This document shows, piece by piece, positions 1,397 to 63,459 of a stretch of 64,000 nucleotides of DNA. The stretch is taken from assembly GCA_009746045.1 (NCBI GenBank), contig RPFO01000390.1:148501-212500 (forward strand), read 5' to 3'. This DNA is from Mesostigma viride. Its lineage: Eukaryota; Streptophyta; Mesostigmatophyceae; Mesostigmatales; Mesostigmataceae. The translations under genes were made by a program, and so were the position numbers. A model generated the notes under the pieces. The model worked only from the letters and a program-made list of their open reading frames with translations, made no database searches and was not told the origin of the DNA. How positions within the stretch are numbered: the stretch's first letter is position 1; every line of letters begins with the position of its first letter.

Positions 1397-4300
1397 ATGT
1401 TCAGCACTTTGGGGCAAGCGCTCAAGCAGAGGGTAGAATATAGAGTGGGCCAGGTAGGCGCCCTGGTCACTGCGGCGCAGGCAGCAAGGCAACAAGCTCG
1501 GCAGGTCGTGCAGGTAAAAATTTTTAAATGCCGATTTTCGGCAAGCTGACCACCTCGCCCAAGTTGTTATGCAAGCTTGGATGCGCCATGTAGCTATACT
1601 TGAGTGCCGGTTACGGCTGCTGCATGTTTCATCTGATAATCCTTTAGGCATGTCGACTAATTTCAGGACATTGTAGCCGTTAACAGCTGTGCACACGCAG
1701 AGTGTGCAGGATGGTTGGAGGCAGCCGGGTGAAACCAGCTCCCTATGTCGCCTGCTTACTAATGAGATGTTAGAGGCGAGACGGGAAGGAGTCGTTCAAG
1801 CTACAGCCTGACGCGCCTATTGAACTATGCCCACGGCGTGCTCGGCCTCTGCAGGGAGTTGCTACTGGCATCCAGGAGGTAGACCTGGTGTACGTCACCG
1901 AGAGCATCATCGTCGTCGGCTTTCCCCCATGGGCCAAAGCCGTGGGGCTGTTCGGGCGGGGAGAGGTAAACAAAGGGAAAATCTTGATTGCAGTGCCGGA
2001 ACAGTACTAAACCCGTAATGCCGGCACTTTTCTGGTGCATTCACGAGGTCCATCTGTGGGACATGTGGGCGCCAGTCCTTGGCATGTGTGAGTACGCATC
2101 AGTTAGTTAGGAAGTAAATCTGAAATCCCCCCCCCCCCCCCCCCCGGCGCTTTTCTCGCCTTCCCTTCGTCTCCCTCGCCCCTTTCCCCCTGCTCCCCAC
2201 CCGTGCCCCGCTCGCCGTCCCCGTTTTCCTTTCTGCCCGGACCCGCCCATACTCTGCCACGCTGGCCGCCTGCCCGTCCGCTAGCCCCGCGTTGCCTGTT
2301 TGACATTGAGGCTAAGGCCGAGCTCACTCTGTCGTGCGACCCTATAAGCAAAGTTCTCTTTTTCCTGGCACCTCGAGAGTCGTGCGGCTGGTAATGGATG
2401 GGCATGGGGGGCATAGATTTGTGTGGGCGTTGGGGGGGTGGGGTTGGTACCTTTTTTTTATCAGCTCCCACCGCATGTGTTGCACGCGGGTTGTATTCAT
2501 GCACCCATTGCACCCCTTGTCAACATCTGTGCATCCCTTGACAACACTACCCCTTGGTTAAAGGACCCCTCGACAAATTACTCCTTGATGAAACTGCCCC
2601 TCTTGTTAGCAGTCTGGCTAGTGTGTGGCGCGTGACTGTAGTAAACGAGAGCATAAACGGAGCATATGACTTTTCATTTCGGCGCGGCTCACCGATGCCC
2701 TCAGTGAAAATTTTGGTACGAAGGATTCAAACACAGGACCTCTCGCATGATTTCAGCGGATGTGCACACCCTTTGCAAACGGTTCTCGCGCAGTGCATCG
2801 CAGGTGACACGGCGGTAAAAAATCCGTGATCGGCCTTGGCGTTTAGTGCCATGAAGCGGCCTGTTTAGGGTTCAGGATTTAGTGTCGGGGCGGCTGCATC
2901 AGCGAGCCAGCTGTGTGGCGCGGCTGTGTCAGCAGCGGTGCCAGGGCGGTAGCTGGACAAGTGCCTGACCTTGTCCTGGGGGTTCGTTGCTGGGTCAGTT
3001 GTCGCTCGCGGTGGCGAGTGTCACTGCCTGCGCTGTTAGTGCCAAAAGTGGTTGCAGTTCAGAGATCCTAGTCCCCGTGGCACGTCCCATGGCATGATGG
3101 CGGCGTATGTCCCATGCGGCGTATGCGTCATGACATGATGGCGGCGTCGTGTTGACCTGAAGGTGCCCTGTTTGGTGTGGTGGATGTCTTGCTAGCTTTG
3201 GTAGTGCCCGCTCTGGTGCGGCAATTCCCTTGTGGGATGCGGCATCCATCGGGTGAATGGGTCATTGACTTGTTAGATCTTCTTCTTTGGCGTTGGTTCT
3301 TTGGCGTTTTATTGGTTTTGCGTTGCGGTTGTTCCCGTGCTGGCGACTGCGCTTCCCTTTTTGGCGCGCACCAGACTCCCTATCAGATTCCCATGGAGCG
3401 CGCGATCGAGTTCTTGGAGGAGCACCACCGGGTAGGCTGCCCTTGTTAGTGGCTTACACTCGCAGTGCGTGTCGCGCCTAGGATCTACTCTACTGGCGTG
3501 TAGAGATTGGGTGTGTGCACCGGTATCTGGAGAAGCAGCGCCGGGTAAAGTTTCCACAAGGCCAGCGGCTGCTGCTTCCCAAGTGGCTGGACTCCGATTT
3601 CCTGTTTTGTCGTTCACAGATAGGGTTTTCTTCACTAGCGCGCGTCACCCATCATGTTTCCGTTAGCCGCTCGTATGGGGCACCTTGGTTACTGGCGATA
3701 AGCTATTACTTACTGGCGATATTTCTGGCCTCCGCTGGTTGTCTCATATATAGTCACTGGCTATATGTCATTAACAACTGATTTTCAAGCCTCATCCGTT
3801 CTGTGCACAAATATATACTCTACATAGTTTATCTACATAGTTTATCTACATAGTTTATCTACATACTTCATCTACATAGTTTATCTACATAGTTTATCTA
3901 CATAGTTTATCTACATAGTTTATCTACATACTTTATCTACATAGTTTATCTACATAGTTTATCTACATAGTTTATCTACATAGTTTATCTACATAGTTTA
4001 TATACATAGTTTATATAGCCGTAAGCTGTCACGCACTGACCCTCACGCTTCATCCGTTCCGCGCACACGCGGCTGCGGTGTCGGATGCTAGGTCTCGTGA
4101 GCATGTGGTACTCGAGCTACTCATCGTGCGTGTGGTCACAAATAGAAGTGAGGCAATTTCTTTTTTCCTTATTATAGAAGGGTTGGGCTTGATTCTGGGA
4201 TAACCGTCGCTCCATGTAGTCCGTGGGTCCCCCGCTGGCGCGCGTGGTTGGATTGTGGTTGATTGACTCTTGGCTCTCACAGTGTAAACCTCGCCGTATA

Positions 4301-7300
4301 CTCTCAGCATTCACCTGAGCCTATTTGCTCTCACCTAGCTCCTGGCGTGCCGTGTAAAGCGTGCAAATACATGCGCCACTGCTCACAGGTTGGGTAGCGT
4401 AGCTCAGTAACTGCGATATGCATGTGGAGTGAAGTGAACACGGTTTGTTGACATGAATGTTTGTGTGAATTGGGTGCGATAGGCAGGTGCCAGTCAGTAG
4501 ATGCTTCTGGCATCCGTAGTCTCTGCTTGGCATCCCAGCCCCCCGTATTCACCATCACCGCACACTAGCTAACGACCCCCGTTTTGTGCTGTGTGAACCC
4601 CCAACTGCATGCTGCCTGCCACTGCGCGGTTCAGGGCTGCTACAAGTTCTACAACTTGTGCAAGGAACGGGTGTACAATCCGGAGGACTTTGATGGCTTG
4701 GTGCGTGACTAGGCCTGGAGGTGTATGGCGTAGGGTTACGGGACAGATGTGGTTTGGGTGATGTTGGACTTTTGGGATTTGGGCTTTTGGGTTAGAGTGA
4801 GCAAGCCCGGGGACTTTGGTGGCTTCCTGTGCAGTTTTGTGTAGGGCGTTTAATTTGTGTAAGGTCCAGGGATACAGGGTGCGAGTTGCTGGGTGAGGAG
4901 GTACGTGTGGGGTTTACGCAGTTGAGGGTAGCAGGTGTAGGGAATAGGGGTAGTGGGTAGGAGGAATTAGGTAGGGGTTCAGGGGAAATATCATTGTTAT
5001 GCTTTGCAATCTGGTGGATTTGTTTGGTTTGCTTGGCAGCTATTTAGGGTCTAGGTTTGTCCGGCAGCTATCTAGCGTCTAGGTTTGTCCGGCAGCTATT
5101 GAGGGTCTAGGTTAGCTATATATGGTCTAGGCTTCTCCGGCAGCTGCTCATTCCCACTTCTTACTCCGGTGCACACACACGCACACACATATCATCCCCA
5201 CCCACCTTTCGCTCCATCCTCGTTTCTTCCAAATCCGCCACGTGGCAGGTGACCCACGTCCCGCTGGAGGAGGGCCACCCGCCCCCGCTGTCGGCGCTGC
5301 TGATGATGTGCCAGGGCGCCAAGGTGTGGCTGCGGGGGGGCATCTCCAACATCATCGCGGTGCACTGCGGGGGCGACCGCTCGCGCACCACCATGGTCGT
5401 CGCCTGCATGCTGCTGTACCTGGAGGTGAGTGTGCTGCCCTGCCAAGTAAAGGGGAGGAGAAGGGTAGGAAGGAGGGCGGGAAGAGGGGGAGAAGGGGAG
5501 AAAGAAGATGCTGCTCTACCTCTAGGAGAGTGTGCCGGCTGAGGGGGGAAAGACGACAGAAAAACGGGGAAAGGCAGGCCACTTGCAACTTTTAGGAGGA
5601 AGATGAGGAGAATGGGAAATGCAGGGGGGCCTCTATCTTGAGGTTATCACACCACCCTTTTGAAAAGAAATTTGTGCGTAGTGATGCCTTGTGTTGGCAA
5701 AGAAATCGGTGCATAGTGGCAGTGTTGGCATGGCTGGTGGCATTGTCTGCTCTCATGTGGCGCAAGTGGCAGCATTAGCGGCCACATTAGTGTGCAAGTG
5801 GCAAGAAATAATGAAGTAAGCCATGCTCCCGTAACCATGTCGCGAACATGGCAAGTAGCCAGCTGGTTCATTTACTCCAGCAAGCCATGTGGCGCTGACA
5901 CGGCGCTCCATCTGTACTGTTTATGCCGGCCATGTTGCCTGAAGTACATAATCTCAAGTGACCCTTTCGGCTAATGTGGTGCGTTGTCCCATCCTTTTCA
6001 GCGTTCCTTCCACCATCCTTGTCCCCATCCCTATCCCTGTCCTCCCCCCATCCCCCACCCCCCATCCCCCACCCCCCATCCCCCACCCCCCTCACCCACA
6101 GTTCTTCCGGCGTGCGGATGAGGCGCTGGCGCACATGTGCGCGACCACGACCGGCTTCTGCACCAAGCCGGATGGCAAGGCCGGCTACATCACGCCCAGC
6201 AGCCAGGTGTGTGGCAAGGCTGGTCACATCACGCCCAGCAGCCAGGTGTGTGGCAAGGCCGGTCACATCACGCCCAGCAGCCAGGTGTGTGGCAAGGCTG
6301 GTCACATCACGCCCAGCAGCCAGGTGTGTGGCAAGGCCGGTCACATCACGCCCAGCAGCCAGGTGTGTGGCAAGGCTGGTCACATCACGCCCAGCAGCCA
6401 GGTGTGTGGCAAGGCCGGTCACATCACGCCCAGCAGCCAGGTGTGTGGCAAGGCCGGTCACATCACGCCCAGCAGCCAGGTGTGTGGCAAGGCCGGTCAC
6501 ATCACGCCCAGCAGCCAGGTGTGTGGCAAGGCCGGTCACATCACGCCCAGCAGCCAGGTGTGTGGCAAGGCCGGTCACATCACGCCCAGCAGCCAGGTGT
6601 GTGGCAAGGCTGGTCACATCACGCCCAGCAGCCAGGTGTGTGGCAAGGCTGGTCACATCACGCCCAGCAGCCAGGTGTGTGGCAAGGCCGGCTACATCAC
6701 GCCCAGCAGCCAGGTGGGTGGCAAGGCTGGTCACATCACGCCCAGCAGCCAGGTGTGTGGCAAGGCTGGTCACATCACGCCCAGCAGCCAGGTGTGTGGC
6801 AAGGCCGGTCACATCACGCCCAGCAGCCAGGTGTGTGGCAAGGCTGGTCACATCACGCCCAGCAGCCATGTGTGTGGCAAGGCTGGTCACATCACGCCCA
6901 GCAGCCAGGTGTGTGGCAAGGCTGGTCACATCACGCCCAGCAGCCATGTGTGTGGTCGTATCGGCCAACGTCACACAAGGGGTGGCAGGAGGGTATTGTA
7001 AACACGGTCATGTTTATGTCTGAGAGGTGCGGGGCATCAGTTCCCACACTTACACATTTATTGAGCCACGATTTCTGTATCCTCCAAAGGGGTCTCGTGG
7101 TATACTCCTATTTGCAGCAGAGGTATGTGCATGCTGCTCCACGCTCCTTTGTCCATCTGTGCTGGCGATGTTGGCATGCACGTTTCCGGGTGCCCTGTCC
7201 TCCATATTTTGAATCGTATCCCCCAGGCCCTCACTCCGATTGGCCGTTGAGTCGCACCTCAGGCTGTGTGGAAGCCGGTGGTGATTGTTGTGGAAAGCGT

Positions 7301-10300
7301 TATTTTTAGCAACGTCTGGTCTGCACCCACCACTCAACACTGACGTCGATTTGGATGTGCGGCTGCCTTGATAGCTAGTTGTTGCCTCTTTCGTACCAAG
7401 GCCCCTGTGATCATGAGTATTGCAACACAGTGCGTGTTTGAGAGAAAAGCTGCGGATATCCAAGACTCAGACGGAGGTCGATGAATCTTGTGTCGCCTCC
7501 TTGTATTGCTGGCAGCTGCGTGGGATGTTGCGCTTGTCACAGGTGCAGTCGTATATGTGATGCACTTCTATTGCTGGCCATGAAACGTGCTTTACTTGTC
7601 GCCATGTTGTCACCATATCGTCGCCATATTGTCGCCACATCGTCGCCATACTGTCGTCCTATTTTTGCCATATATTGGTTGTCTCCTTGATATTTTTGCC
7701 ATATAGCCGCCTTGCTGCTGCCGTCTGGTTGTTCCATGAAGGGAATGGAGATATTTTGTCTTCCTGCCCGGCACTCAGCTGACCTGATTCTCTGCTATCC
7801 CCCCCCCCCCCCGCCCCGCCCCCCCTTTTGCTATTGATGCCCGCTCCTGTGCCCCCTTGCCCCCTTGTGAAAATGTTGTACCACCCTCGCTCCATCTTCA
7901 GCGCTTTGTGGAGTACTTTGAACAAATGCTGGCGGCAATAGCGCTGGCAGATCCTGAGAAGGGGCCACCCCCACCCCCCGGACGTGAGTACTCACCGCGT
8001 TCCCCACCCCATTCATAGGCCATCCCATGAATACAGCCATGCTCCCAGGGCCCCACCCACCCAACGCCGACAATCATTTTTGGCTCTCATGCCCTACCAG
8101 CGGTGGCCAGTCCGCTTCATTTTCTTAGAGATTATTTTTTCTAGCTTTTTCTTGCACTCATCTGCCCATGCGTTGGTGCCTGTCCATTGCGTGCTCCCTC
8201 CATGCCAGCCAGGGAGGGCCCCCCTTCCCCAGCGTTTTGCGGCACGTGGTCTGGTCGAGCGGTGCTGCATCTGATCATGCCTGCTTCCGCGCCTGTCTGC
8301 CCCTCCGCTCTTGCCCCTGTTCCTCCCCCCTCGCCCCCACCAGCTGCTTCATCCGCGGCGTGCGCTTCTTCAACTGTCCAAAGTACCTGCGGCCGCACAT
8401 CACAGTGCGGAACCACGAGGGTGGGTGTGGCCCGTGTGCTGCCAGCGTTCATTCTAGTGTGTGGTGGCTTGCAGTAGTGTACTGCGGCCGCACATCACCA
8501 TCAGGAGGCACGCGGGCGAGCGCAACTCGTGACCGGTACTAGCCGTGGACATGTACACTCATTCACGTCGTAAGTTGGTTTTCGAGGGGTCAACCCAAGT
8601 AAAGGCGTGAATGACTGTAATGTCGCGCGTTCACTGTAATGTCACGCGTTCACTGTACTATCAGTGAACATGCGGCTGCCATCTCTCAAGTCCAACCAGC
8701 CGCATGTTCACCAAAGCCCGACGGATGGTCAAGGCCGCTCCCGTCACGCATCGTTTCCGGACTCCAATCCGTGGCGGCTACCAGCACCGAGCGTGAGAGG
8801 AAGACGTGGGGGACTTCTCCAACTGTCTGTGAAGAATGTCCAGTGCGGCCTCTCTCTGCTAGTCCCCCCCTGCACGCACCAGCACACACACATACATCTC
8901 GGCGCTGCGTTCCCTTCTTTCCTGAGCTGCCGTATCCTACCATGAGTTACCCAGTGTGTCGGGTCGTGCTGTCATGATACTGGCGATCAATGGAGGGAGG
9001 AACGCTGATGCGTGCCAGGGCAGCCAGTACATGTCAATACCTGATGCATCGTGCATACAGCGATCAGTGTCCGACAGTAACCAGGGTTACGCGGTCGTCG
9101 GCGGGTCTCTTCCAAGTTTCTCGGCTCATAAGTAATTTGTAATGTTTTCATAAGTTATTTGTAGTCGTCGTCGGTTATCTTGTAAGTTGTACCTGTACGT
9201 CACCGGCCACTCCATTGTCAATCAAGACTTAATGGAGAATCATGTTAAATTAAGGCTCAATTGTTGATCAAGACTACCTTACCGATAAAAAATTGAAAAG
9301 CCGGTGACCTTGTGCATTCCCGTGTGCCTCAGTTTGCCAAGCCGTGCACCGATGCGCCTCAGCTGTGACTGTCTGTAAGCATTTTTTAGTGCCTTACTTC
9401 CGTTACTGCTCTGCTTGTACTTGCTCCTGTGCTGGGACTCGCAGGCATCCTATTTACAACCAAGGACAACCCTCACTGCGGGGTAAGCAAGCCTTGGCTG
9501 TTGCTGGGTTGATACACTGGGTTGATACACTCCGGTGCATGGTATCCATGTTCCAGGGGGAATTTAATCTGCTGCGCAGACCCTAGACTGACTAGCCAGC
9601 CCATCTGTGGCGATGTTATGCAGTTTAATTGTAACACCAGCAATGTCCTTGCAATTTCCCTGCCTACACTTCCCAAACCAGCTGGATCTATGCTTCCTTT
9701 CAATGTCCTACATCTCCTTCCCGTCCCCTCCAGTGGGGGCCCTGGCCTTGGTCCGCTCCCTTCCCCACCCTGATCTCGCTCCCCTGCTCACATTTCTACC
9801 TTTGCAGTCTCCCCACCTCCCTCATGGTACTGAATATTTTTGGATGTAGTCATTTCTCGTTTTTTTTTTTTAGATGCTGACTTCTTTACTTTGCCTGTCC
9901 TGTCCCTGACCCTGTCCCCATCCCTTTCTCCTCCCCACCCCACCAGCCCGACGGCCCCGGCGTGTGGCTGTACGGCATCTCCCTGCGCGGCCTCCCTGTG
10001 CTGAAGTTTGTGCCGGCGCGGCTCGGGGAGAACTGGCAGGTTACGGGCGAGTTCTGCATCCAGTTCCACGACCGGTGGGGCGACTTCTACTGGTGCGTAT
10101 ATGGCCGCAGTGTAGATAGTCAAGGTCGATAGTGTCCTAATCAATACTGTGGGTGTTCCACGACTTGTGGGGCGACTTCTACAGGTGGGTCACTGGCAGA
10201 GTTGATCCCCATGCCTGCAGTGTCCCGTTCTACCCAGTATTTTTTTCCGGAGCCAGATATTTATTTTGTTTATTTCAATTTTTTTCCCTACGGGCATCAA

Positions 10301-14992: not shown

Positions 14993-17900
14993 CTAGTTGA
15001 CGATGATTCCAGCGTCTTTCAACATGGTGTTCAGCGCGCCAGAATCTGCCAGCTTTGAAAGGTCTGCACGCAACCACAAAACACCAAAGATATATCAGAA
15101 AGGGAAGAGGTTATGGACGAAGACAAGGTGTCCAGTAGGCACAGCCATCGCCTGTAGATCCATATCTTCGGTGTGAGCAGCAACAATCGATAGGCTATGC
15201 TACCAATATACATCAGATGTGTGCAATAACATTTGTCCATGATGACCGATGTCATGACCGATTCCATGACCACAGCACGCGTGAAATACGGCATGTCACG
15301 GAGCTGTCATGCCCATGGGCATGTGTTCAAGGTTCAGCGTAAATGCACAGGCATACTAACGAGTGGACAGGGGATGACCATTGGCACACTCCCATCCTGG
15401 TTTACGACTTTACGCGGGCCCAGGCTAATAAGAACCCGTGATTTCCATACTCCAGCCCTGCCCTGCCGATTCCCCAATGGGCACGCCCATCAAGTCCAAC
15501 CGAACCATGCACCTAAACCAAGTGGCAAGAAACTGGGCCGGAAATTACTGGCTGGAGATGGGTGGCCGAAAGCAGTAACGCCAATCATCAAAGCGGTCCC
15601 CAGGTGGGGAAACCAAATCCTTTTCTGTGGGAAGGCAGGCATGTTGACACACCTAACCAGTGCGTCCAAAGTCCTCGTATCATAGCAAACAATGGAGAGA
15701 CAAGAGTAGTGAGGAAAAAGACAAGAGTAGTGAGGAAAAAGACAAGAGTAGTGAGGAAAAACACGAACATGGCATCCTTGGGCGAGCAAACCCACCATCA
15801 AACCCGCCGACGTGCTGGCCAGCTGGGAGGGGCGTGACGACGTGACGGAGAAAAGAAGCAGCGGCGCGTGGGGACCAAGGCATGTCCGGATGCCCAAGGG
15901 GTGGGCACAATGATGCAAGTTGGTGACGGAATGTGGGTGGATCGTTTAGCACCGGCATGATCACGAACAGCTGGCCTGATTGCCAATCAAATTACTGTTA
16001 GTTTTATTATTGTTATTATTATTGTTATTATTATTGTTCCTATTACTACTATCATTATTACTACTATAAGTATCATTACTATTATTTATGAAGGATGTTC
16101 TCGTCTGAGATACATACTTAGGAAATGCCCAGATGAAAATGAGTTGATGTAATTACACCATCACAAACACGGTCAGCGGTTGGGAGTCCACATCACCATG
16201 CCGCATGGCCACACAATCTACACATAGATAAGTTACACCCATATAATACACAAGTCACATTCGGTACAACACCCGCGACAAGCTGCCTTGGCATCCACGG
16301 GACAAGCTGCCTCGGCATCCACGGGGCAAGCTGCCTCGGCATCCACGGGACAAGCTGCCTCGGCGTCCACGGGACAAGCTGCCTCGGCGTCCACGGGACA
16401 AGCTGCCTCGGCAGCCACGGGACAAGCTGCCTTGGCATCCACGGGACAAGCTGCCTTGGCATCCACGGGACAAGCTGCCTTGGCATCCACGGGACAAGCT
16501 GCCTTGGCATCCACGGGACAAGCTGCCTTGGCATCCACGGGGCAAGCTGCCTCGGCATCCACGGGACAAGCTGCCTCGGCGTCAACGGGACAAGCTGCCT
16601 CGACGTCCACGGGACAAGCTGCCTCGGCATCCACGGGACAAGCTGCCTTGGCATCCACGGGACAAGCTGCCTTGGCATCCACGGGACAAGCTGCCTTGGC
16701 ATCCACGGGACAAGCTGCCTTGGCATCCACGGGACAAGCTGCCTTGGCATCCACGGGACAAGCTGCCTCGGCATCTACGGAACAAGCTGCCTCGGCATCC
16801 ACGGGACAAGCTGCCTTGGCATCCACGGGACAAGCTGCCTTGGCATCCACGGGACAAGCTGCCTTGGCATCCACGGGACAAGCTGCCTCGGCATCCACGG
16901 GACAAGCTGCCTTGGCATCCACGGGACGAGCTGCCTTGGCATCCACGGGACAAGCTGCCTCGGCATCCACGGGACAAGCTGCCTCGGCATCCACGGGACA
17001 AGCTGCCTCGGCATCCACGGGACAAGCTGCCTCGGCATCCACGGGACAAGCTGCCTCGGCATCCACGGGACAAGCTACCTTGGCATCCACGGGACAAGCT
17101 GCCTCGGCATCCACGGGACAAGCTGCCTTGGCATCCACGGGACAAGCTGCCTCGGCATCCACGGGACAAGCTGCCTTGGCATCCACGGGACAAGCTGCCT
17201 TGGCATCCACGGGACAAGCTGCCTTGGCATCCACGGGACAAGCTGCCTTGGCGTCCACGGGACAAGCTGCCTTGGCGCCCACGGGACAAGCTGCCTCGGC
17301 GTCCACGGGACAAGCTGCCTCGGCATCCACGGGACAAGCTGCCTTGGCGTCCACGGGACAAGCTGCCTCGGCATCCACGGGACAAGCTGCCTTGGCATCC
17401 ACGGGACAAGCTGCCTTGGCATCCACGGGACAAGCTGCCTTGGCATCCACGGTCTTTCATCCAACTATCCAACTTGTACGTCCAACGAGTCTCTGCCGGT
17501 TGGTCCGGCGGCTTGGTCGAAATACATTTGCCCACCCACCAGGGACACCTGGGACACAGAGTGTTTCCCCACTTTACCGATGCGATCAATACGTTAACAG
17601 TGTCACAGCTAGCTTTTATTCCGGCCTAGCCGATCAGTCACTCACCCGCTGAAACCTGCCGTGCGCTGCACATTCCGACTTTCCCTCTGCCTGTTTCGCG
17701 GCCAAAAATACCTACCTGCCTATTCCACGTCCATTCACCCACGAACACCTGCGGCAGTGCATATTTCCACTGATTGCCCACTGTCATCCACAATTGCTTG
17801 AAGGTATAATACTACAAATATGATAAGACATGCTATCTATCTAATCAAGGTATAATAAGACATGCTATCTATCTAATTAAGGTAAAGTGCTTGAAGAGGT

Positions 17901-19296
17901 ATTTAGCCACTCACCCACAAACACCTGCGGCGCGGTGTACTTGCCGAACGCGTCCATCAGCGCCTTCTGGTAGTTCTCGCACAGCGGGCTCTCGTCCAGC
18001 TCAAACGTGCCAAAGCTGACGCCGTAGCTCGACAGCAAATTCTTGGCCTTCTTCGAGTAGGGGCAGTACGACTTGCTGCGCGATGATATGTGTAGTGCGT
18101 GGGGAGCGCACGGGTGGCGAGTGATGGGTAGTGAGAACAAATGTAGGGCGCGGAGCGGAGCAATGAGGACATGCAGATAATACGTGCCCATTCATACGTG
18201 CGCAATTAGCGAGTCCACCAGATTTAGCAGATAATACGTGCCCATTAATACGTGCGCAATTAGCAACTCCACCAGATCTAGTTATTCTGTACCAGCCAAA
18301 TAATTACGGTGATGCAGAAATGTATTTCATGAGGCGTGTGGTCCTCATGATCGCTGCCAAACAAGAAGGGGGCAGGGACTCCTGCCCTTCTCTGGGCACC
18401 GTACCTCGTAAAATAACAGAACAAACTAGCTCATGAAGCATCTCGTGAAGTCACATAAATGCGACCACAGTGTATCGCACGGACAGTGAACCTTATGAGT
18501 GAACACAAAAGAGTGCCCCGCATCCGAGCACCGAGCGTGGGCCACGCCTCACCTGGGGACCACAGTTACCATTCGCTGCCCACCGTGCAGGCAGGCTAGT
18601 GGAGGTATCATGGATGGTGGGCCCACACGACGACGTGGTGGGCCCACACGACGACGTGGTGGGCCCACACGACGACGTGGTGGGCCCACACGACGACATG
18701 GTGGGCCCACACGACGACGTGGTGGGCCCACACGACGACGTGGTGGGCCCACACGACGACGTGGTGGGCCCACATGATGACATGGTGGGCCAAGACCTCA
18801 CTGGACCCCGAACACACGAGCAATGCCTCAACTCAACACGAGCACGCCGACATGGGGCCCCCAACATGCTCCCAACCAACCCCGACCTAAACACAGACAC
18901 GTGCCGTCGTTTACCTGAACACAAACAAGCCTGAATGCAGTACGAACACGGCCATTCTACCTCACCTGTCTGCTGACCTCAGGTCCTACTGCAACCACAG
19001 TGGCTACCGGGCTCTCCTCGAGAGTAGTTCTTGATTGCACCTGTGGCCTGCCTTGTTGGAAGTGAGATAGGGATGGGTGTCTCTGCCCTCCTTGCTGTGT
19101 AGCAACCCGGGATGGAAAGCACTTAAGGAATGCATTGTTGTGCTCCACGACTCCCCAACGGGCGTAATTAGTAAATCAATTAATTCTACCTCACCTGAAC
19201 ACGAAGATGGGCCATCCTTTACCTGAACACGAACACGGGCTTGGACTTGGACATCTGCGTCACGCGCTCCACCAGCTTGGGCACGGCCGACTCCAT
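14993..19296 (-). CDS. GRX: Glutaredoxin, CPYS type (4 exons, 110 aa)
   Basis: Exons on the minus strand: 19296-19223, 18075-17915, 15822-15796 (27 nt) and 15063-14993. All junctions are GT-AG and in phase; the total of 333 nt gives 110 aa, the usual glutaredoxin size. The ATG at 19296 gives MESAVPKLVERVTQ, the typical first helix. Motifs: SKSYCPYS active site (Cys29), the TAPQVFV cis-Pro loop, GQHVGGFDD glycine motif split across the micro-exon, and the C-terminal helix LSKLADSGALNTML. Family role: glutathione-dependent reduction of disulfides or glutathionylated proteins. No clear transit peptide is seen with this start, so a cytosolic location is likely. Introns are large and repeat-filled. 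Confidence 0.9.
15699..15761. repeat. 21-bp tandem repeat, 3 copies
   Basis: The unit GACAAGAGTAGTGAGGAAAA(A) is repeated three times without change, inside the last glutaredoxin intron and just downstream (minus sense) of the 27-nt exon. Confidence 0.9.
16277..17452. repeat. 24-bp minisatellite, 49 copies, in a glutaredoxin intron
   Basis: The unit GACAAGCTGCCTTGGCATCC plus ACGG is repeated 49 times with no length change. Variation is almost confined to two transition sites (TTGG/TCGG and GCATCC/GCGTCC). Because 24 is a multiple of 3, the array is open in several frames on both strands (period-8 peptides such as ASTGQAAL). I treat these as repeat artefacts, since the array lies inside intron 15823-17914. 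Confidence 0.95.
17733..17765 (-). repeat. 5' splice-site echo of glutaredoxin exon 18075-17915
   Basis: Read on the minus strand, CTGCCGCAGGTGTTCGTGG followed by GTGAATGG copies the exon end GCGCCGCAGGTGTTTGTGG followed by GTGAGTGG, 176 bp further into the intron. Confidence 0.7.
18616..18783. repeat. 21-bp minisatellite, 8 copies
   Basis: Eight tandem copies of a unit beginning GGTGGGCCCACACGACGACG; the last copy is diverged. It lies in the first glutaredoxin intron (18076-19222). Confidence 0.95.
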
Positions 19297-21784: not shown

Positions 21785-36426
<14,642 letters not shown>

Positions 36427-38777: not shown

Positions 38778-41700
38778 CTATCTACTGAGGAAGCCACCCA
38801 GGAAGCCAGCGCCATTGCACTCGCCGCACAGCATTTGCCGCTTGCCCCTGCAGAAGCAATTCGAGGCCACAGCATCGATGCAGTAATGTTAGCACCAACC
38901 AATATATCAAGCAAGACTACTATTCCTGGACGCATGGCGCACCACTGCAATCAAAAGGACTAGCGCAGTTGTCCGAGAGGAAAAGCGCAAAGACCGCGGA
39001 CGCCACGTGGTTGTCTCGGAGGTTCCACAGGGATACGCCCACTGTATGCTCACAAGAACATACTAGTGGTGTAACCACAAAGATAATAAAAGACATTACC
39101 AACTTTTAGCAGGATGTAAGAATCCCAAGAGTGCCAAGCCAGTAACATGGTGAGCATTTCTGGCCGGCGCTGGTGGTCTCATCCACAAGCCTGATGTGAT
39201 CTGGAGCTTACCTGCAAAGCCAGCAGACCTGGCCCTTCTTGAACCTCCCTTGGAAAAAATCCTCTGCATTCTTGCCCGTGCCGTTGCACTGGTTGCAAGG
39301 GACCGAACCTGTGGGAGCAAACCACAGCCAACCCAATACAGCCCAGTCAGGTGTATAGTGTACACTTCGAGACCGCGAGAACAAGATCGTGTAGCATCAA
39401 GCCATCTCATGCCTTGCTGGCCCACGTTGCACTGCGTCACATGTTCGGTGGTGTTAAGTATCTTTAAGACAACTCTGCCCTTTGTGTCACCGCCGTAAAG
39501 TACGAGGGTGGGCGACGACATGCGATGGCCAGCACCCTGTGGAACTCGGCGCAAGGCGTGTGAATGTGCCGCGTAATGCTTGCATCCGGGGGGGTGCCCT
39601 TTTGCCTCATACCGATACCCTGTGCTGGCATTCAACAGTATCGTAGAGATCGCACATCCTCAGGCCTCGGCCCATTGTCTCCATGAGCGTGCGCGGCATG
39701 GTTACCCCAGGATGCCACGAGGGGCATTCAAATAGAGTTTTATCACAAGCACGTGGCTGCGTGAGGCGCATGCCCCGAGCAGGTGCGCACATCTCACGCG
39801 CCAACAGGTGGCAGCACACATGTTCAGCACAGGTGTCCGGTGGTAGCTGAATGCTGGCATATTGATATGGCCAGCACTTGCTTATGTGAACTCTGTATTT
39901 ACCAGCATTCAACTCGGAGAAGAGCTGGGAAGAACTGGGATCTATCAAACGTGCATGGGCTTGGACTCCATTCGGTCCTTGTACTGTTCTACATTTCCCT
40001 CCCCTCCCCAGCCCACCCCACCCTTGCCAACGCGCAAGGCACTCAAGGGCATTGAAAAATGAGGCCAAGGATGGTGTCCCACCACAGAACACTCCTGGGC
40101 ATCTCCACACGTCAGCTTGTTGTTTATAACAAATGGCATGGGACACTCTCACAAAAATATGTACTATTATGCATAGACGTTGTCTGCCCCCACATTTATT
40201 CCCATCAAAGCACACCTCTGCTTAATGTGAGGCATGCTGTAAAGCATATCTTCACCCGGTCCAAAACTAGGTGTAGAGAGTGAACGGCTACGGATACTAT
40301 AAATGTAACTTCGCCTTCACACTTGGTCCCGAATAGGTGACTAGTGTACCACCTAGGCATGCACGAAAAGTACCTTCGCCTTCACACTTGTTGCAGAATA
40401 GGCTCTTCTTCGCGGTTTTGGTGGGCTCCTCGGTGGGCTCGGGCGCCTCCTGCGACAAACGGATGACAAAGGAATAGCACAAGGATAACAATAGATTATA
40501 CGAGGACAAAAAACGGATAACAGAAAATAACAACAGGATAACAGATTGTTATCCAGAGGATAACAAAAGGTATTTTAAAAAGATTTCAAAAGGATAACAA
40601 AGCTCGAACAAGGCCAAACAGATGAAGTCAAACTAAGCAAAACAGGGTCTATTTGAATCAGCAGGACAAAATCTGGCAAGGTCTACAATGCAAACGGTAC
40701 ACTGTAGGATGCCTTACAAGATTCCATCCGCTTAAAGAAGAGCTGAGCCGATTCTAGTGCCAGAGTGCATGGGGGATAAACGATTTGCAGGAAACAGACA
40801 AGTATTATTCCCCCTCTCCCGGAATCTTAGGACAGCTTGCAAGTGCCAAGCTGCGAATAAATATCATGGACCTCTCATGCTGTCTGGGAGCGCAAACATG
40901 CAGTTGCATAGCGCCAAAACACCAAAAACAGATAAGAGTATTTCCAACCCGTCGCAGAGACCGCGACCAAAGGGAGTTTACAAGCTAAACAACTGGAATC
41001 CCACCCACCTGCGCCAAGCAGACCACGTTTCGGTTAAAGCCTGTAAGGGCCAAAATCAAGCAAACGTAAAGGCAAGGAATATGAACCCATTACAACCTTT
41101 ATATTTGGAATCAGAAGTGAGATTACATCAAACGGCAATGCTCCGAAGGTACGTGGAACGTCGTCCTCAGTGGATAAGGTTTACGAATTTCGTGAAATTC
41201 AAGATAAACATACGTGCGCGAGCGGATGGGATTGGGCAGGCAGCCTTCGGACCAATTATTCCCGCTGGAGACGCCCGGCACACTAGACGACCTGCAAGTA
41301 TCGACGCGAAAGGATAAGATAAGCTCCAGACCGTCGGTCATCATGCCCTGCAGAACACTGACTAGCCATCGGAAGGAGCCTATAATTTCTTGAAACATAC
41401 CGTGTGAATGGCATACTGCCCCCGACTGTTCACGGACACAAGAAGAGGAAACTTGCGCGATGGCTGCCATTGTCCGTTAAAGATTATGCGAAAATGCTGC
41501 GAAGAGCAACTAAGAAAGTGGTAGGCACGCACGGCGAAGTCGTCACCAGGGCGAATTGGCTTCTGATCTACGCACAAACGGCGCAATGAGGTCGCCCAGT
41601 TGCACAAGTCGCTGGTTCGCGGCGTGCCGGCCGCAGCAATGTCAGGTCAGGGACTCCGGGTGGTGCCTACTGAAAAATGCATGTTGAAATATATTGTGCA

Positions 41701-42870: not shown

Positions 42871-45800
42871 ATGAAGCTTGTAAACGTCTTAGTGCTCGTT
42901 TCGCTGGTATCGGCGCTGCTGATGATCAGTAATTTCTCGAGCCAGCGTTCGGAGATGTTAGACACCCGGAGCGGCCGCCGTCTTCTCAGCTCGTTCATGC
43001 CCAGGGGAGTGCCCATTTGGCGGGAAATGCTTTCTTCGGTGCGCCGCCCAATGAAATCCGTAGCTAGCACCTTGGGCAGCCGAGTCCAGCACAGTTTGCC
43101 AGCCCCTATCGCCCGCGCTGCGGCAAAACCGCTGGCGAAAAGCGTCCGCGACGAGCCGAAGATCGAGCGGCGGCTCGCGCAGACCATCATTGTCATGCGG
43201 CACTGCGCCACCTCCCCGTTACACCGGTACCCGTTCGAGAACACCACGTGGGATGGATCGGCTGCCAGTGGATGGGGGCGGCTGACGCCCGTGGGATTGG
43301 GGCAGTGCTTTGAGTTTGGCGAAAACCTCCGGAAGCGCTACATCGAGAGGGAGAGCCTGGTTCCGCCGGTCTACTCAAAGTCAAACATGTAAGTCTTCTG
43401 CAGTCTCCTTCCTTACTAGAAATGTGCTTACACTTGGCAGAAGACAATTCTACTTCCCCCCCCCCCTTTTTCACTCGCCTGTCCCTTGCCCCTGGAGCAG
43501 ATCACTACTCGTACCTCATGCCCAGGTGTCAGCTCCGGATCTGTCAGTAATTGCCATCCCCCCGCAAGTGCACATACATGCCCATTCATGCCCTTTCATG
43601 CTCACTCATGCCCACTCATGCCCACTCATGCCCGATCATGCCCACACATGCCCACTCATGCCCGATCATGCCCACACATGCATTACTTGCCCCTAAATCG
43701 GCTGCCCCATTTATTTGCGGGATCCCCTCTCATGCCCCTTTGGTTCCTCTTACCTTAATGCCCCGTCCATGCCCCTTCCATGCCCATCGCATGCCCATCG
43801 CATGCCCATGCCTGCCACCTATCCCTTTCCCACCCACCCCACGACACCCGCCCGCAGGTACGTGCGCGCGGTCCGGCTCGAGCGAACGGTCGACTCCGCC
43901 ATGGCCGTGCTGCTGGCCATGTTCCCCCCCATGAACAGCAGCTACGCGCAGATTCGCGGCGTGCTCGACACCAACTGCGCCTGCCTTGGCCAGCCGCCCG
44001 CGCGCGCAACCCCGTCCAAGGTCAAAGTCAAGGTCAAGGGCAAGGTCAAGGCAAAGTTTGTGCCCAGGCCGCTCCCGCCATGGGTGGTCGAGGGGGTACC
44101 GGAGGGGGTCGGGTATACCAAGGACTGTCTCATGAACTGCCTGGGCATTCGCATCGGCGGGTTTGGGATTCTGTCCCCCGCACCGCCGGTGTTCCCCTGG
44201 GGCAAGTGGTCGCCGATGCAGCATACCGCCGTGGACGCGCCGCTCCCGCCGGAGGTGGATGCCATGCTCATGCAGGCAAAGGTGCGGGATGGAACATGTA
44301 CTTCGTTTTATTCTTTTTTTCCTCTTCTTTTCTTTACACGATAGGCTTGATTATGTGAATGGTTGTTTGGTGCTCATGCAGGGCAAGGTGCTCTGGGGGG
44401 GGGGGGGGGCCCATGGGAGGGGAGGCGGAAGGGAAAGAGAGAGAGGGTTTTCATTCTTTTGGGATGACATTTAGTAGTAAATGATTAAGACATGCGCGAG
44501 CTTCCACGGTCCGGATCTTCCAGAGGGTAGCCCTGCGCTGATTTCAGGCCTTGTTTGATTGGTGTATGCTGGGTAGTTGTAAGGCAAGAGGTTCATGGGG
44601 CGGATGGTTGTTTGATGCTCAGGCAAGGACGTGTGACCGATCAGGACAAAAATATGACGTAGGGTATATTGAACACACGCATGGTGCTGTTTTTTAGTAA
44701 GATGCACCGGATGTGACAATGTCTATCATGTGAACGGATCACATGGGTCGCATGGGCACGTGCACAGGGAGGACATCAACTGCTGCTGCTCTTAGCTGGC
44801 GGAGTCCTCTGATCTGGGTGCTTAGCACAGAAAGGGCAGGCGTGTGCTAGGAACACTTCACAGGTAGTGGGCCACCCGGAATAGATGTGACTCGCAGATG
44901 CCTACATTAGGTAGAATGAAAGGTTCTTATATGACCCATGGCCCATGACCCGTGACCCACGACCCATGACCGATGACCCATGCCCAATTCACATGACCCC
45001 TTCAACACAACCCGTGCTTTAGGTAACAATCTACCCATCCCCGTTCCGTGACCAATGAATGTTGCCCCTTGTGCGGTCGCGCAGGTGTGCCCCCACTGGG
45101 CGCGCGCCGAGCGCCACCTGGTCGAGTCCCTCGTGTGGCGAGAGAAGGAGGCCCACGAGTGGTCCAACACAAAGGACGCGATCCTCGCGCTCAGCATGAG
45201 CGAGAACGGGGAGGTGTGCGACCTGGCGGCCGAGACCATGTGTCGCCAGGTGTCCGGGATGGACCTGGCGAATCTTTACGACAACATCATGGCGCACGAG
45301 GTCTCCGGGCGCCAGTACCAACCGGCCGAGCTGCTGGGTTTCCGCAAACGCCTCAAGGCCGCCAAGGAGTGGATCATGCGCGCGCGGTACCACAGGGACA
45401 TCGGCCGAGAGGCCGGTGGGATTTTACTGGGCGACATCATCTGGCGCATGACGCAGCGCAAGAACTTCCGGAACGAGGCCGCCCAGGGGGCCAGCATGGT
45501 GCTGTACGTGGCGCAGGAGAGCACGCTACTGGGCTTGATGGCCACGTTAGGTATCGAGAACCCTCCGATCCTGAACTTTGGGTCGCACGTCGTGTTCGAG
45601 CTGTGGGAGCCTGCGCCGACGACGCCGCTTCTATCGCCGCCAGGTGGCGGTGTCATCGACTGGCAGGTGCGGATCACATTTGACAACGAGGACGTCCAGC
45701 TGCAGGGTGTGCGGGGCTGCCCCACGGGCGTGTGCAGCCTGCACGAGTTTGTGGATGGCCTGATCGTGCACACGACCGACGTCAAGTCGGTGTGCCCCAA

Positions 45801-45969
45801 GGCACTCGAGAATGCTCCCATCGCGGCGCTACTGCCCAAGCAGGAGCAGGAGGCGGCTGCGGCCGCGCTGGCGCAGGTGGCGGGGGCGGGGTCGGTCTCA
45901 AAAGCAAAGCCGAACACGAGGGTGGACGCGTTGCATACAATGGACCCGGTCAACTCCATGTTGACTTGA
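42871..45969 (+). CDS. Secreted histidine-acid-phosphatase-fold protein with degenerate active site (3 exons, 608 aa)
   Basis: Exons 42871-43388, 43858-44281 and 45085-45969; phases agree. The N-terminus MKLVNVLVLVSLVSALLMIS is a signal peptide or anchor. The fold is recognised from IIVMRHCATSPLHRYP, GRLTPVGLGQCFEFGENLRK, YVRAVRLERTVDSAMAVLLA and the C-terminal YVAQESTLLGLMATLG followed by GSHVVFELWE. In active members the first motif is RHGxRxP and the last contains HD before T(T/L). Here they read RHCATSP and QE, so the second Arg, the second His and the Asp donor are replaced. A Lys/Val repeat (KVKVKVKGKVKAK) is inserted in exon 2. It is longer than typical acid phosphatases (about 400-450 aa). 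Likely a pseudoenzyme or an altered activity. Confidence 0.82.
44353..44632 (+). repeat. Two 5' splice-site echoes of phosphatase-fold exon 43858-44281
   Basis: The exon end ATGCTCATGCAGGCAAAG plus GTGCGG is copied as GTGCTCATGCAGGGCAAG plus GTGCTC (donor at 44388, 106 bp further) and again, shortened, as ATGCTCAGGCAAGGACGTGT near 44615. The two intronic copies share an upstream ATGGTTGTTTGRTGCTCA absent from the exon. Confidence 0.7.
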
Positions 45970-51315: not shown

Positions 51316-51402
51316 GTCTCAGATCGATGGGTTTCCGTCACGAGTGGCTGTAGCACTGTAATTGCTGTATTTGTCGCGCGCCGACTGGTGGAGGAGGTGC
51401 GT

Positions 51403-58604: not shown

Positions 58605-59789
58605 TGTATAATGTTTCTTATGCCATGTGAAGGCTGCAGTGGCTCACCGCGGCAGAACAATGTGCCGAACCTACTCCCCGGGCCACAATGGGGGTAGCAA
58701 ACTGGTTGGAGAAGCCAGGACAATCGCTCCCAGCGCTGCAACAACTCGGCTCTTGCAGAGCAGAGACGGGCAGTCAAAACCGGCAGACTTTTAATGCAGT
58801 GCGCGCGCAAAAAGTGGTGCACTCCGCTAGGTCGCTTGCAGTGGTGTGCTCGCGATTGCCAAAAATTTGACGAGGGTGGAACGTGGAACTCGATCAGTTT
58901 ACGTCATCTGGAGGCGCGCCAGCTAATGTACTGCACGTGGGCGGGCAAATATAATTTTGCGTCCGCGCGAAAGTCCGCGGGCAATCTATTTTAGGCATAT
59001 TTTGTATTTTTTGCCCGGCGCATTGGCGCGAGGAACTTGGCCGCCTACGGACAGTGATGTCACCGAGGTGCGCGTATCAAGAATCGGGATTTTGCCAGGA
59101 TGCTCCAGGTGTTTCGTCTGATATTGCTCCACCCGGGTAAAGCAAGATACTGTGCTGGGTAGTTGTGTAAACGTAATTTCGGTGGGTCAGTCAACCGGCG
59201 TGGAAATACTGAACTGAGCTGAACGCTCGCGTCAACGGAGATTTGACGGCGCTATCACGGCCACGATATCTGAGATGTCTGACAAGATTCCAAATTGCAT
59301 TTTTGAAGGGGCGCATTGCCGCGTTCGCGCCACCCCTATGCAGCCCGTGGCACCTTTATTTTTGGAAATATGTCTCATCTATAAAAAGTTTGCGGCCATG
59401 TTTGGATATTTTGGCTCAATTCCTGCTCCCTGGATATTTCATCGATATTTGATACAAGAACCATAGGGAACCGCAAGTACTCGTTAGTATCCAAGATCTT
59501 GATTCGATAGTGGAAGGGGGCAAGGGGCTGACGCAGTTGACACAGTGAGCCCCTGCATTTCCCTGCGCACTTTAAGTTAAGTGCGCAGCGAACGGCCTGC
59601 GCCATGACCTGCGACTTGCGACTTGCGACTGCCCCGCCTAACGCGACGTTTTGCCGGCTCGACGTTTTTGTCATCAGCATGAACCATAATGCGGATAAAC
59701 CGCCGGTTTAAACAATTAAATCTGCAATTCTCTCGCCGGTTAAGTTGCACGTCACAAGCCTGCTTATCTGGTAGCCCAATTCATTTATC
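58605..59789. other. Divergent intergenic region between the HRGP gene and RAF1
   Basis: No gene or repeat recognised. Both flanking genes are transcribed away from it, so it should contain both promoters; no clear TATA element was identified. Confidence 0.5.
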
Positions 59790-62700
59790 ATGTGCGCCCT
59801 AGCCGCCCACAGAGTAGATGCCGCCTTACTCTGCTCGCATTTCAGAAGAGGCGACGTTGCTTTCAACGTGAGTCGCGACGGCCTCGCAGCTCGGCCTGGC
59901 GGTGCAGGACAGCGGAAAACATGGCGATTCTCGCCCCAATGCATCATCTTGCCGGGTGGGGGCTATTCATCGGGGACTAATGCCGGGAAAGGAGGAAACA
60001 AGCCCCGGAAGCTTATCTTGCCCGACGAGGAGCCGGCCAGCACAAGCCGTGGCGGTGTCATCAGTGCGCCTACTGCGAGGCAAACCTATCGTCCTCCTCC
60101 TGGGTTTATGGATGAAGCATCAGGTATCACCGCATCCGCCTGCCGTCCTTTCACAAATTTTGTATCTACAGTTCCAAATGATGGTCCAATCTGCAGTCAT
60201 CGATTTCAATCCGATTACAGTCGCTGGTGCGTACTGTATCACAGTTTGCCGCTAACATGTACTACGTAACTTCTTGCACTTCGTCATGAAAAAAGTACTA
60301 TTGAATTTAATGGCTCTAGGCCAGTATGTATGGTATCCAAGTTTAGCCAGTTCGAAGCAGCTGAATGGATTTTGCCCCTCCTCAAGCCTTGTGCATGCCA
60401 GGAACCGCGCATAGGCTAGACTGCGAGCATGTGCTAGTCTGCATGCCTTGCTTGAGCACTTCCCACAACATTAGCTTTCGGATTGTGACCGGAGGCCTTT
60501 GACGTGTTAGAGCTGCCTGGCAAGCTACAGAGGGCTATTTGCATTGGAAATCGCTCGTGAAATGTGCCCCGTGTTCAAATCTTTCTGCGACCTGGAGGCG
60601 AATTCCTGTCAGCGACCCACTTGCAACCCTGGTGAGCACACTACTCTAGCATCTGGGGGGGCATTGCCACCCACGAGCACTGCCGATTACTGTCGTGGGT
60701 AGCAATGACCCCTGTTGTGCAGGCGACATATTATTGAAAACAACATAAACACGCGTATTCTTTCTTGAAAACGTATTTAGTAATCTGTTCCCCCAGCCTT
60801 TGTCTGCGAGGTGGCGAAATGGGCTAATAACCAGCGGGGTTGCATGCCCTAGTAATGGATTGTCCCGTGGGACTGGTAACCATGCACGTCCAGAAATGTC
60901 TTGCAGTCATGCTGTAGGGCTGCCCCCCTAAAGGATGTTGACATCCTCTGGAGGCATGGATGTGCTGCGACGACTGGGTTAGCTGCTAACTGCCACCAGC
61001 ACGCCGACTGCCACTTCCCTGCGGTTACTAGCAGGCTGGCCCTTGCCTCTTGCTGCCTCTTCCCCCACGCTGTTCTTGCCATCCGGACCCCTCCCGTCCC
61101 TGCTCTCGTCGCCATGCTGACTCTGTCCCCGCCCCGCACGCTGCCATCACCATGCTAACTTGCTCCGCACGCTGCCATCGCCATGTTCACTTGCACCGTA
61201 CGCTGCCGATGGTGACAGTTGCACCTCGATGGCCAAGGGCATGCCACCCCATGGAGCCTATCACCCCACGCTGACCCCTGCCCACATGCCGTCCAACACA
61301 CATGTAGTTGGGTACCAAATCAGTTTGGTACCAAATTTAAATTCTCGTGCGCCCACGCATGATCGTCCCCTCGGCACACACGTGCGCGCTCGCACACACA
61401 GACACACACACACACAGACACACACACACAAACAAACAAACAAACAAACAAACAAAGCCCAGGCCCGCTCCCAGTTACCCGCCCAAACGCACGCCCCTCC
61501 CACCCACTCATGACCCGACATAGCGCCCGCTTACATGCCCACCCACGAACCCCTCTTCCACCTGGCTGAGCCTGCCTATCGCTTGACGCTGCCCATGGCT
61601 TGATGCTGCCGATTGCTCCATGCTGCCACCCGTCACGTACACACAGACCTTGCGGACGACCTGGTGACGGAGACGGTGGAGGAGCAGCTGGCCATTCTGA
61701 CCAACCGCTCCGGCCTGTGGCACGAGTACGCAAAGTTCATCAGTGGGCTTGAGCGCGAGGGCATCGACGCGTCCATCATCGATGAGGTCTCGGGGATCAC
61801 GCCTGTGGAGCAGAACCAGATCAAGGTCGCTTCGCAGGTGGGTTGCGGGGCAGCGAGGGACGGGGGAAAATGGGAGGGGGACCACAAACAGGTTGCCTCG
61901 CATGCGGGTTGAGATGGGGCGGAGGGGGACCACAAACAGGTTGCCTCGCATGCGGGTTGAGATGGGGCGGAGGGGGACCACAAACAGGTTGCCTCGCATG
62001 CGGGTTGAGATGGGGCGGAGGGGAAGCACAAACAGGTTGCCTCGCATGCGGGTTGAGATGGGGCGGAGGGGGACCACAAACAGGTTGCCTTGCGTGCGGG
62101 TTCCATCGGGATGGGGCGGAGGGGGTGGGCGGAGCGGAGCCAAATCAAGGTCGCATGGCAGGTCTGGGGGGGCGGTGGGGGTGGGGTGGGGGTGAGGGTT
62201 GATGTTTGCGGTCAGGGCATGTGGCTTGGGGTAGGGGTTCAGATGTTTACCAAATTCACGTTCTGAAATTAGGGTCTCCTTCCCACATCCCTGCTCGTGC
62301 TGGCCTTTGCAAAAGTTGGGATCTCGTGGTTTTCTTGCGTTCCCTAAGGAAGTTGGAGAAAGCTCAACCACCAGTTGAACTGTAACCAGCTGTGTTACAC
62401 GCTCAAGCTGGTCTCTTTACTAGCCCCTCACACAAGCACCTATTCTTGTTGCTGTGGTGATTGCTCTGCCTTGCGAGGTGTGCCGCACGCTCAAACCGTT
62501 GCCAGATCTAGGCACTAACAAACCAATGTGTTTTCTACACCCCCTACCTCAGGTGTACCGCACGCTCAAGCTGGTGTCCAAGCTGACCGATTCGCAGCTG
62601 GCCTACTTTGACAACGAGAGCGGGCACGCCATCCTCTACGCGCTGCGCATTCTCGGCGTGGCGCAGCGGCGCGACGCGGCCGTGTACATCGTGGAGAACA

Positions 62701-63459
62701 ACTTGGAGGTGGCCGAGGCGGGGTGGGTGGGCGCACTATCCCTGCAGTTGTTGCTATGATTTTCATTGGATGTAGTTGAAATTATTCGGCTGCGTGTATA
62801 GTGGAGGTGACCGAGGCGGGGTTAGAATGGGGAGATGCGTCCCTCGTATTTACTGTTATTACCCTTCCTCCCTCCCTCCCTCCCTCCTCCCTCCCTCCCT
62901 CCTCCCTCCCTCCTCCCTCCCTCCCTCCTCCCTCCTCCCTCCCTCCCTCCCTCCCTCCTCCTCCCTCCCTCCCTCCCTCCCTCCCTCCCTCCTCCCTCCC
63001 TCCCTCCCTCCCTCCCTCCCTCCCTCCCTCCCCCCCCCCCCCCCCCCGGCCACCTGCCCCTCTTCATCCAAAGCACCGTTATCAACCCACCGTTTCCAAT
63101 CCCTGCCACTTCTCAATCCCCATCTTCCCAACCCGCGCCTTTACCCCCCACACACTCACCCACCCCCATCCCTTATCTCCTCCCCACACACTCCTGGCAG
63201 CACCCTGAGCCGCGCGATCAAGGACCACGAGCGCAAGCGCGGCGGGTCGGCGCGCGACGCGTTCGAGTCCACCCCTGCCGACTGCATGGCCTACTACTAC
63301 TACCGCATGGCAGGGGAGAAGAACGCGGCGGAGCTGGACGCCAAGGAAGCGGCGCTGCGCAAGGGGCTTGAGTACGCTAGCAGCGAGGGCGCGCGCTCGA
63401 CGATTGAGCAGGCGCTGCGCGTGGTGCTGGGCGAGGAGGAGGAGGTGGCCGAGGCGGAG
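59790..63459 (+). CDS. RAF1: Rubisco accumulation factor 1 (RAF1), 5' four exons, continues past the window
   Basis: Exons 59790-60123, 61647-61837, 62553-62722 and 63201-63459; 954 nt, 318 codons, all phases agree, with a donor GTGAGA at 63460. Family landmarks: YRPPPGFMDEAS before the helical domain, AILTNRSGLWHEYAKFIS, IDEVSGITPVEQNQIKVASQ, ALRILGVAQRRDAAVYIVE, TLSRAIKDHERKRGG, PADCMAYYYYRMA. RAF1 is a chloroplast dimeric chaperone that assists assembly of the Rubisco large subunit. The first 60 or so residues are Arg/Ala-rich, consistent with a transit peptide. The C-terminal beta domain lies beyond the window. Introns carry satellite arrays. Confidence 0.9.
61881..62120 (+). repeat. 48-bp minisatellite, about 5 copies, derived from a RAF1 exon-intron junction
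   Basis: Units starting ACCACAAACAGGTTGCCTCG repeat with a 48-bp period just after the donor of exon 61647-61837. The unit core CAGGTTGCCTCGCATGCGGG then TTGAGATG aligns with the junction AAGGTCGCTTCGCAGGTGGG then TTGCGGGG. At 62142-62165 a further copy (AATCAAGGTCGCATGGCAG plus GTCTGG) retains a donor-like GT. Confidence 0.85.
62391..62504 (+). repeat. Two echoes of the start of RAF1 exon 62553-62722 upstream of its acceptor
   Basis: CACGCTCAAGCTGGTCTC (62398-62415) and AGGTGTGCCGCACGCTCAAA (62476-62495) copy AGGTGTACCGCACGCTCAAG and CTGGTGTC at the real exon start. Spacing is 75-88 bp. Confidence 0.75.
62791..62829 (+). repeat. 5' splice-site echo of RAF1 exon 62553-62722
   Basis: TGGAGGTGACCGAGGCGGG plus GTTAGA copies the exon end TGGAGGTGGCCGAGGCGG and donor GTGGGT at an offset of 98 bp. 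Confidence 0.75.
62862..63047 (+). repeat. Pyrimidine (CCTCC/CCCT) array upstream of a 3' splice site
   Basis: About 170 bp of CCCTCCCT/CCTCCTC repeats ending in a C-run of about 17, in RAF1 intron 62723-63200. Long open frames read through it are artefacts. Confidence 0.95.

Follow-up and report, generated by a model that had tools for sequence, protein, structure and literature searches.

Exon-edge echoes in the window

The window is a 64,000-nucleotide stretch of Mesostigma viride DNA, almost certainly nuclear (assembly GCA_009746045.1, contig RPFO01000390.1, positions 148,501 to 212,500 of the forward strand) with six intron-containing genes, for which it had been predicted from the sequence alone that diverged copies of exon ends and their donors, termed echoes below, lie in the introns that follow. 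M. viride is a streptophyte alga. Pfam matches supported a PTEN-like phosphatase gene (PTEN2 C2 domain at 8129-8539; E 4.5e-6), an EXS gene (EXS at 25546-25962; E 7.4e-6) and a RAF1 gene (Raf1_N at 62424-62756; E 8e-6). A fourth gene was named as a histidine phosphatase from the Pfam tag PF00328 on its M. viride match, and the glutaredoxin and zinc-finger genes kept the labels of the original prediction, with which their exon translations were compatible by eye. The predicted protein of the phosphatase-fold gene was 100% identical to EukProt jgi/Mesvir1/19249 over 94% of the query, the portal code Mesvir1 presumably denoting Mesostigma viride. Aligned back to the window, this protein gave exons at 42871-43388, 43858-44281 and 45085-45876 and introns at 43389-43857 and 44282-45084, the latter placed as predicted, with 578 of 578 aligned residues identical and 19 C-terminal residues unplaced.

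The last 40 exon bases and first 10 intron bases at 13 named donors were compared with the next 400 bases and with 200 dinucleotide shuffles. Echoes outscored all 200 shuffles at 12 of the 13 donors; donor 3432, equalled by one shuffle in 200, was marginal and the weakest case. The best offsets agreed with those predicted (113, 126, 100, 95, 92, 72, 84, 154, 106, 98, 176, 308 and 65), and an alternative glutaredoxin exon end at 17924 also had an echo that outscored 200 of 200 shuffles. Two of the predicted cases needed amendment. The echoes of donor 25780 form part of an 84-bp tandem array (25734-25958), and at donor 19222 the echo at offset 308 held while the nearby 28-bp repeat proved to be a distinct short pair. 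The shuffle control had been named beforehand as able to overturn the prediction, as had exon models that would place the echoes in coding sequence; echo rates far exceeded those of shuffled sequence, and the echoes lay outside coding exons in both protein models examined.

The gene finder and the published protein model together supplied 11 window introns. A score of at least 13 was reached by donor echoes in seven of them and by an acceptor echo in one. Donor 61838 was a new case, with its copy at 62131-62163. So was the acceptor echo, in RAF1, where 62476-62501 copies 62551-62576; acceptor echoes, rare within the window, had been overlooked in the prediction. The echoes and their sources were as follows, with fractions giving identical bases.

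3415..3434, + strand: source, exon end and donor of the PTEN-like phosphatase gene
3528..3547, + strand: intronic echo of donor 3432, 17/20 identical, the weakest case (1/200 shuffles)
4797..4825, + strand: intronic echo of exon end 4671-4699, 23/29
5508..5535, + strand: intronic echo of exon end and donor 5408-5435, 24/28
8482..8516, + strand: intronic echo of 8387-8421, 28/35
10155..10190, + strand: intronic echo of 10063-10098, 32/36
25004..25050, + strand: intronic echo of 24933-24978, 41/47 (EXS is the earlier label; this exon had no Pfam match)
25734..25958, + strand: 84-bp tandem array in the EXS gene, comprising exon end 25734-25779, the donor and two more intron copies
26955..26979, + strand: second, short echo of donor 26906 at +68 (by eye)
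27029..27064, + strand: intronic echo of 26875-26910, 28/36
44282..45084, + strand: intron of the histidine-phosphatase-fold gene (M. viride protein alignment)
44371..44391, + strand: intronic echo of exon end and donor 44265-44285, 19/21
62131..62163, + strand: echo with a score of 22; its source is the RAF1 exon that ends at 61837, donor 61838
62476..62501, + strand: acceptor echo in RAF1, copy of acceptor and exon start 62551-62576
62802..62822, + strand: intronic echo of 62704-62724 in RAF1, 20/21
17731..17755, - strand: echo of exon end and donor 17907-17931 (glutaredoxin, the earlier label)
18907..18927, - strand: echo of the exon end at donor 19222, offset 308
40301..40337, - strand: echo of 40366-40402, donor 40373 (zinc-finger, the earlier label)

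A count made without gene models put 39 local direct similarities in the window at offsets of 20-420; four other offset blocks, each 400 wide, gave 0, 2, 3 and 4. Two 100-kb blocks elsewhere held 100 and 48 at offsets of 20-420, 41 and 11 at 420-820, and 9 and 2 at 3000-3400. Inspected by eye, many of these were different sorts of repeat.

Three further repeats were seen within these genes. Positions 44359-44379, part of the donor 44282 echo, recur 245 bp downstream at 44604-44624. The PTEN-like gene contains a 39-bp tandem array of 20 copies (6173-6955), which the gene finder partly called as coding repeats, and its intron after 8421 holds a palindromic repeat of about 70 bp (8553-8620) with inverted ends of about 24 bp, which resembles a miniature inverted-repeat transposable element and is dispersed, with at least 40 further genome matches.

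Echoes in dynein heavy-chain introns

Dynein heavy-chain (DHC) genes, picked independently of echoes, were surveyed with a splice-aware aligner, which fitted DHC proteins to these loci. Two reference proteins concurred on 40 and then 16 introns, and one more came from a DHC protein of M. viride, jgi/Mesvir1/23397, which was 100% identical across one locus, matched 23 of 23 introns there exactly and added this new one, giving 57 introns. Up to 400 nt were searched at each intron end, with non-cognate introns as the null. The main echo rate thus describes one gene family, and echo statistics throughout come from a single genome, with expectations and simulations from custom scripts.

Donor echoes were found in 25 of the 57 introns (0.20 expected) and acceptor echoes in 17 (0.07 expected), so that at least one echo was present in 35. 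Both ends carried an echo in seven introns, which matches the number expected under independence (25 x 17 / 57 = 7.5); the insertion of a nested paralogous exon-intron-exon unit was rejected on this count. The median offset was 102 nt for donors (31-278) and 132 nt for acceptors (85-301), and searching whole introns added few echoes, 469-1,114 nt away. Each kind of echo kept to its own end of the intron: in the first 40 introns, copies of exon ends occurred in 18 of the 5' halves and one of the 3' halves, and copies of exon starts in 13 of the 3' halves and two of the 5' halves. The copies are direct and near their source, as a plain duplication of the junction predicts.

All echoes were in direct orientation (inverted echoes, 0/57 donors and 0/57 acceptors), and templated insertion in inverted or random orientation was rejected. 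Four tests for copies of exon interiors gave none in 56 or 57 introns, and four tests for copies of the far end of the neighbouring exon gave 0/36, which disposed of free insertion of exon fragments. The possibility that the echoes reflect chance, low complexity or assembly error deserves mention in a genome rich in tandem repeats, and a few echoes are of low complexity; with non-cognate and shuffled controls near zero, and with copies too diverged to be assembly duplicates, we regard its probability as negligible.

The median length of DHC introns was 657 with an echo and 427 without, a difference whose significance was not assessed. In the accessible part of the M. viride genome paper (PMC6947507) the mean intron length is given as 1,141.9 bp and repeats as 30.1% of intron space. 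Two other features of the DHC genes were observed. Intron phase was unusual in 40 introns (29 in phase 0, 11 in phase 2 and none in phase 1), a skew that may be a trace of a past wave of intron gain. On contigs C1215, C1624 and C2022 of G000, DHC genes rich in introns occur alongside DHC stretches whose open frames span about 1,000-2,000 residues, which suggests partial intron loss, perhaps via cDNA.

Multiple echoes and tandem arrays

At a looser threshold of 10.5 (0.093 chance matches per intron), several junctions had two or more echoes, sometimes with a common exon-side edge. The echoes of donor 18802 in gene g4 lay at 57, 122 and 451 and each started at -18, and those of acceptor 8915 in g6 lay at 143, 236 and 314 and reached +17, +16 and +17; a fourth, weaker one was at 430. 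Elsewhere the edges varied, as at donor 6320 of g4 (-39, -29, -27 and -30) and other junctions. The copies at g6 18311 differed from the exon independently of one another by eye.

Homology on the intron side was scored over 60 nt in the first DHC set of 21 donor and 14 acceptor echoes. It was strong in six donor echoes (z of 8-48) and at most 1.7 in the other 15; among acceptor echoes one had a z of 4.8 and 13 had 1.9 or less. Two of the 15 low-scoring donors, g4 5541 and 6320, lay in decayed arrays that BLAST could trace over 388 and 738 bp, so at least eight of the 21 donor echoes were array-like. Plain arrays had units of 51 bp at g8 2366 and 71 bp at 94464 in B, with a 24-bp-based repeat at g4 12191. 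In the remaining, bounded class, similarity stopped at the splice site.

If small mobile elements or introners had inserted at AG/GT sites and left unusually long target-site duplications, direct copies would surround an unrelated spacer and the junctions would resemble AG/GT; both were seen. The duplicated lengths are variable, spanning about 15-70 bp, and the spacers are short and without evident shared sequence by eye in two genes, and we consider such insertion very improbable; within-gene BLAST of two DHC genes gave few matches between different introns.

Divergence and the sharp edge

Codon positions were compared in 29 of 35 echoes, those in which 12 or more exon bases aligned without gaps; 38, 38 and 63 differences from the exon fell at positions 1, 2 and 3. 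Divergence was 14.0% (76/542) at positions 1 and 2 together and 23.6% (63/267) at position 3, a ratio of 1.68, and the changed codons comprised 71 nonsynonymous and 39 synonymous cases. The ratio is close to that of a neutral echo facing an exon that drifts only at synonymous sites, and a conserved decoy is therefore unlikely. In this rough model comparison, which is no formal test, the echoes appear to evolve as neutral copies, since constraint would cut changes at positions 1 and 2 sharply.

The original prediction had offered retained decoy donors as one explanation. Selection for decoy splice sites that steer splicing would explain why splice-site-like bases are kept beside the junction in the echo. 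The changes nevertheless fit a neutral copy, gene-specific exon bases are copied beyond the consensus, and echoes occur at acceptors as well as donors, so the proposal went unsupported and we consider it highly improbable.

In the bounded class, the 15 junction-proximal exon bases were 82-87% identical, and identity, at about 0.85, had dropped to background no more than about 12 nt into the intron at donors and about 8 nt at acceptors. Plain tandem duplication with neutral decay would produce some asymmetry, the intron side being lost on two branches and the exon side held on one. Simulation of this process gave an intron-side score in 30 nt of about 15 at T = 0.14 and about 18 at T = 0.10. 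The change of about 14% at positions 1 and 2 thus predicts a score of about 15, and the observed means were 4.0 for donors and 6.4 for acceptors. In 11 of 33 bounded-class echoes the exon part was at most 10% diverged, and their intron-side scores were just 3.0-10.0, none above 10. Since flank scores fall below simulation, the exon part and the flank must differ in age in this class. Two histories would account for this, one in which copying left the flank out and one in which the exon part was copied again. An exon part younger than its flank is what gene conversion predicts, and direct copying predicts the same.

Tandem duplication across exon edges, the other explanation first proposed, therefore stood as a source of echoes and failed as a full account. 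It explains their direction, adjacency, arrays and edge position, with direct copies at the junction and shared edges; at least eight of 21 donor echoes are array-like, and by eye copies one and two of the 82-bp array at g4 6320 resembled 1x/2x decay. For the bounded class, plain duplication and decay is strongly disfavoured, and as a general explanation we consider it improbable.

Origin of the echoes

We tentatively prefer, at a little short of an even chance, a reading in which duplications straddling splice junctions are spliced out and their exon part is copied or re-copied later than the flank. DNA around splice junctions would undergo repeated direct duplication, in most cases of about 30-300 bp. 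Such a duplication could be harmless to coding if splicing stayed with the exon-proximal site, the extra edge being removed within a longer intron. The echo would then drift without constraint, with which the codon-position rates agree. In most echoes the exon part would share a later ancestor with the exon than the flank does with the intron end, as is seen in the bounded class. The exon may have overwritten an existing echo through gene conversion over short tracts whose reach is set by homology, in which exon and constrained splice-site bases could still pair and the diverged flanking intron bases could not.

The main rival is copying bounded by the splice site, in which a single step carries exon edge and splice site into the intron alongside. 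RNA-templated repair is one conceivable mechanism, in which the nascent exon end, kept near the polymerase, would act as template. It yields the same bounded profile and the same young exon part, and we judge it possible though rather unlikely. Duplication with re-copying was preferred because it also accounts for direction, adjacency, arrays and shared edges. The broader proposition that a frequent process in M. viride copies exon edges at both intron ends, with its boundary set by splicing through bound factors or the nascent transcript, seems to us likewise possible though rather unlikely.

Several points weigh against duplication followed by re-copying. Conversion is a step we infer, and one-step copying with an end bounded by the splice site predicts an identical identity profile. 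Conversion limited by homology should homogenise the intron parts early on, and a threshold must be assumed. Intermediate stages are scarce (the 11 of 33 echoes with exon divergence of at most 10% scored 3-10 against 18 simulated). That splicing uses the exon-proximal sites was deduced from protein models. Rates were also uneven: acceptor echoes were found in one of 11 window introns, intron-poor DHC loci had no echoes in five introns, and ab initio gene prediction in two further 100-kb blocks, of lower model quality, left 23 usable introns with one donor and three acceptor echoes (0.00 and 0.00 expected), donor echoes being rarer than in DHC genes. Because the ab initio and intron-poor DHC introns echo less, the DHC rate is not to be taken as a genome average.

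Many of the introns examined hold slightly worn copies of the edges of adjoining exons, often ending very close to the splice site, which points to a frequent route for exon sequence into introns in M. viride. Intron growth and the origin of intron sequence are poorly known, and with datable copies of their own exon edges in 35 of 57 DHC introns, individual events of duplication, decay and possibly conversion can be traced. If the edge were set by the splicing machinery during DNA repair or copying, RNA processing would be linked to mutation, and co-transcriptional splicing would shape DNA mutation and drive intron growth. For annotation, echoes are potential false splice sites.

Comparison with known systems

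In the AGGT model of intron gain, the 3' end of a new intron copies the upstream exon. The echoes resemble this in being direct duplications of exon sequence with splice-site-like bases, but here existing introns hold internal copies. When the intron 3' end was compared with the upstream exon end and the intron start with the downstream exon start in 40 introns, matches of 30 averaged 8.65 and 8.78 against 8.91 and 8.41 in non-cognate pairs, and intron creation by AGGT duplication was rejected. Growth of minisatellites or short tandem repeats in introns is comparable in that some of the echoes form arrays, whose units measure about 24-100 bp; it differs from the bounded class, where similarity stops at the splice site and the repeated piece is the exon edge with its splice site only. 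Schiml et al. in 2016 reportedly obtained tandem duplications from paired nicks in plants, likewise direct and tens of bp long, and we know of no splice-site coupling in that process. In concerted evolution, gene conversion holds a copy close in sequence to its partner, as it would hold an echo to its exon; here the transfer would go from the exon into the intron and cover about 15-60 bp.

Introners, as described in the accessible part of PMC9860276, also tie sequence gain to introns; there one element is copied into many genes, whereas each echo copies its own exon. We found no description of echoes at existing splice sites in the open-access literature on tandem-duplication intron gain (PMC4974935 and PMC2891723 among it), introners and nick repair, subscription papers lying outside the search, and no mention of echoes in the accessible part of PMC6947507.

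Other duplications

Two other duplications were observed. In block A, 29293-30391 and 60881-61979 share an internal repeat set (L011-L012, L015) about 31.6 kb apart, a recurrence that is likely to reflect a gene-sized duplication. The window also carries two tRNA-Thr(CGT) genes (41737-41808 and 41877-41948), which lie 140 bp apart, are identical over 71 nt and on sequence grounds represent another recent local duplication.
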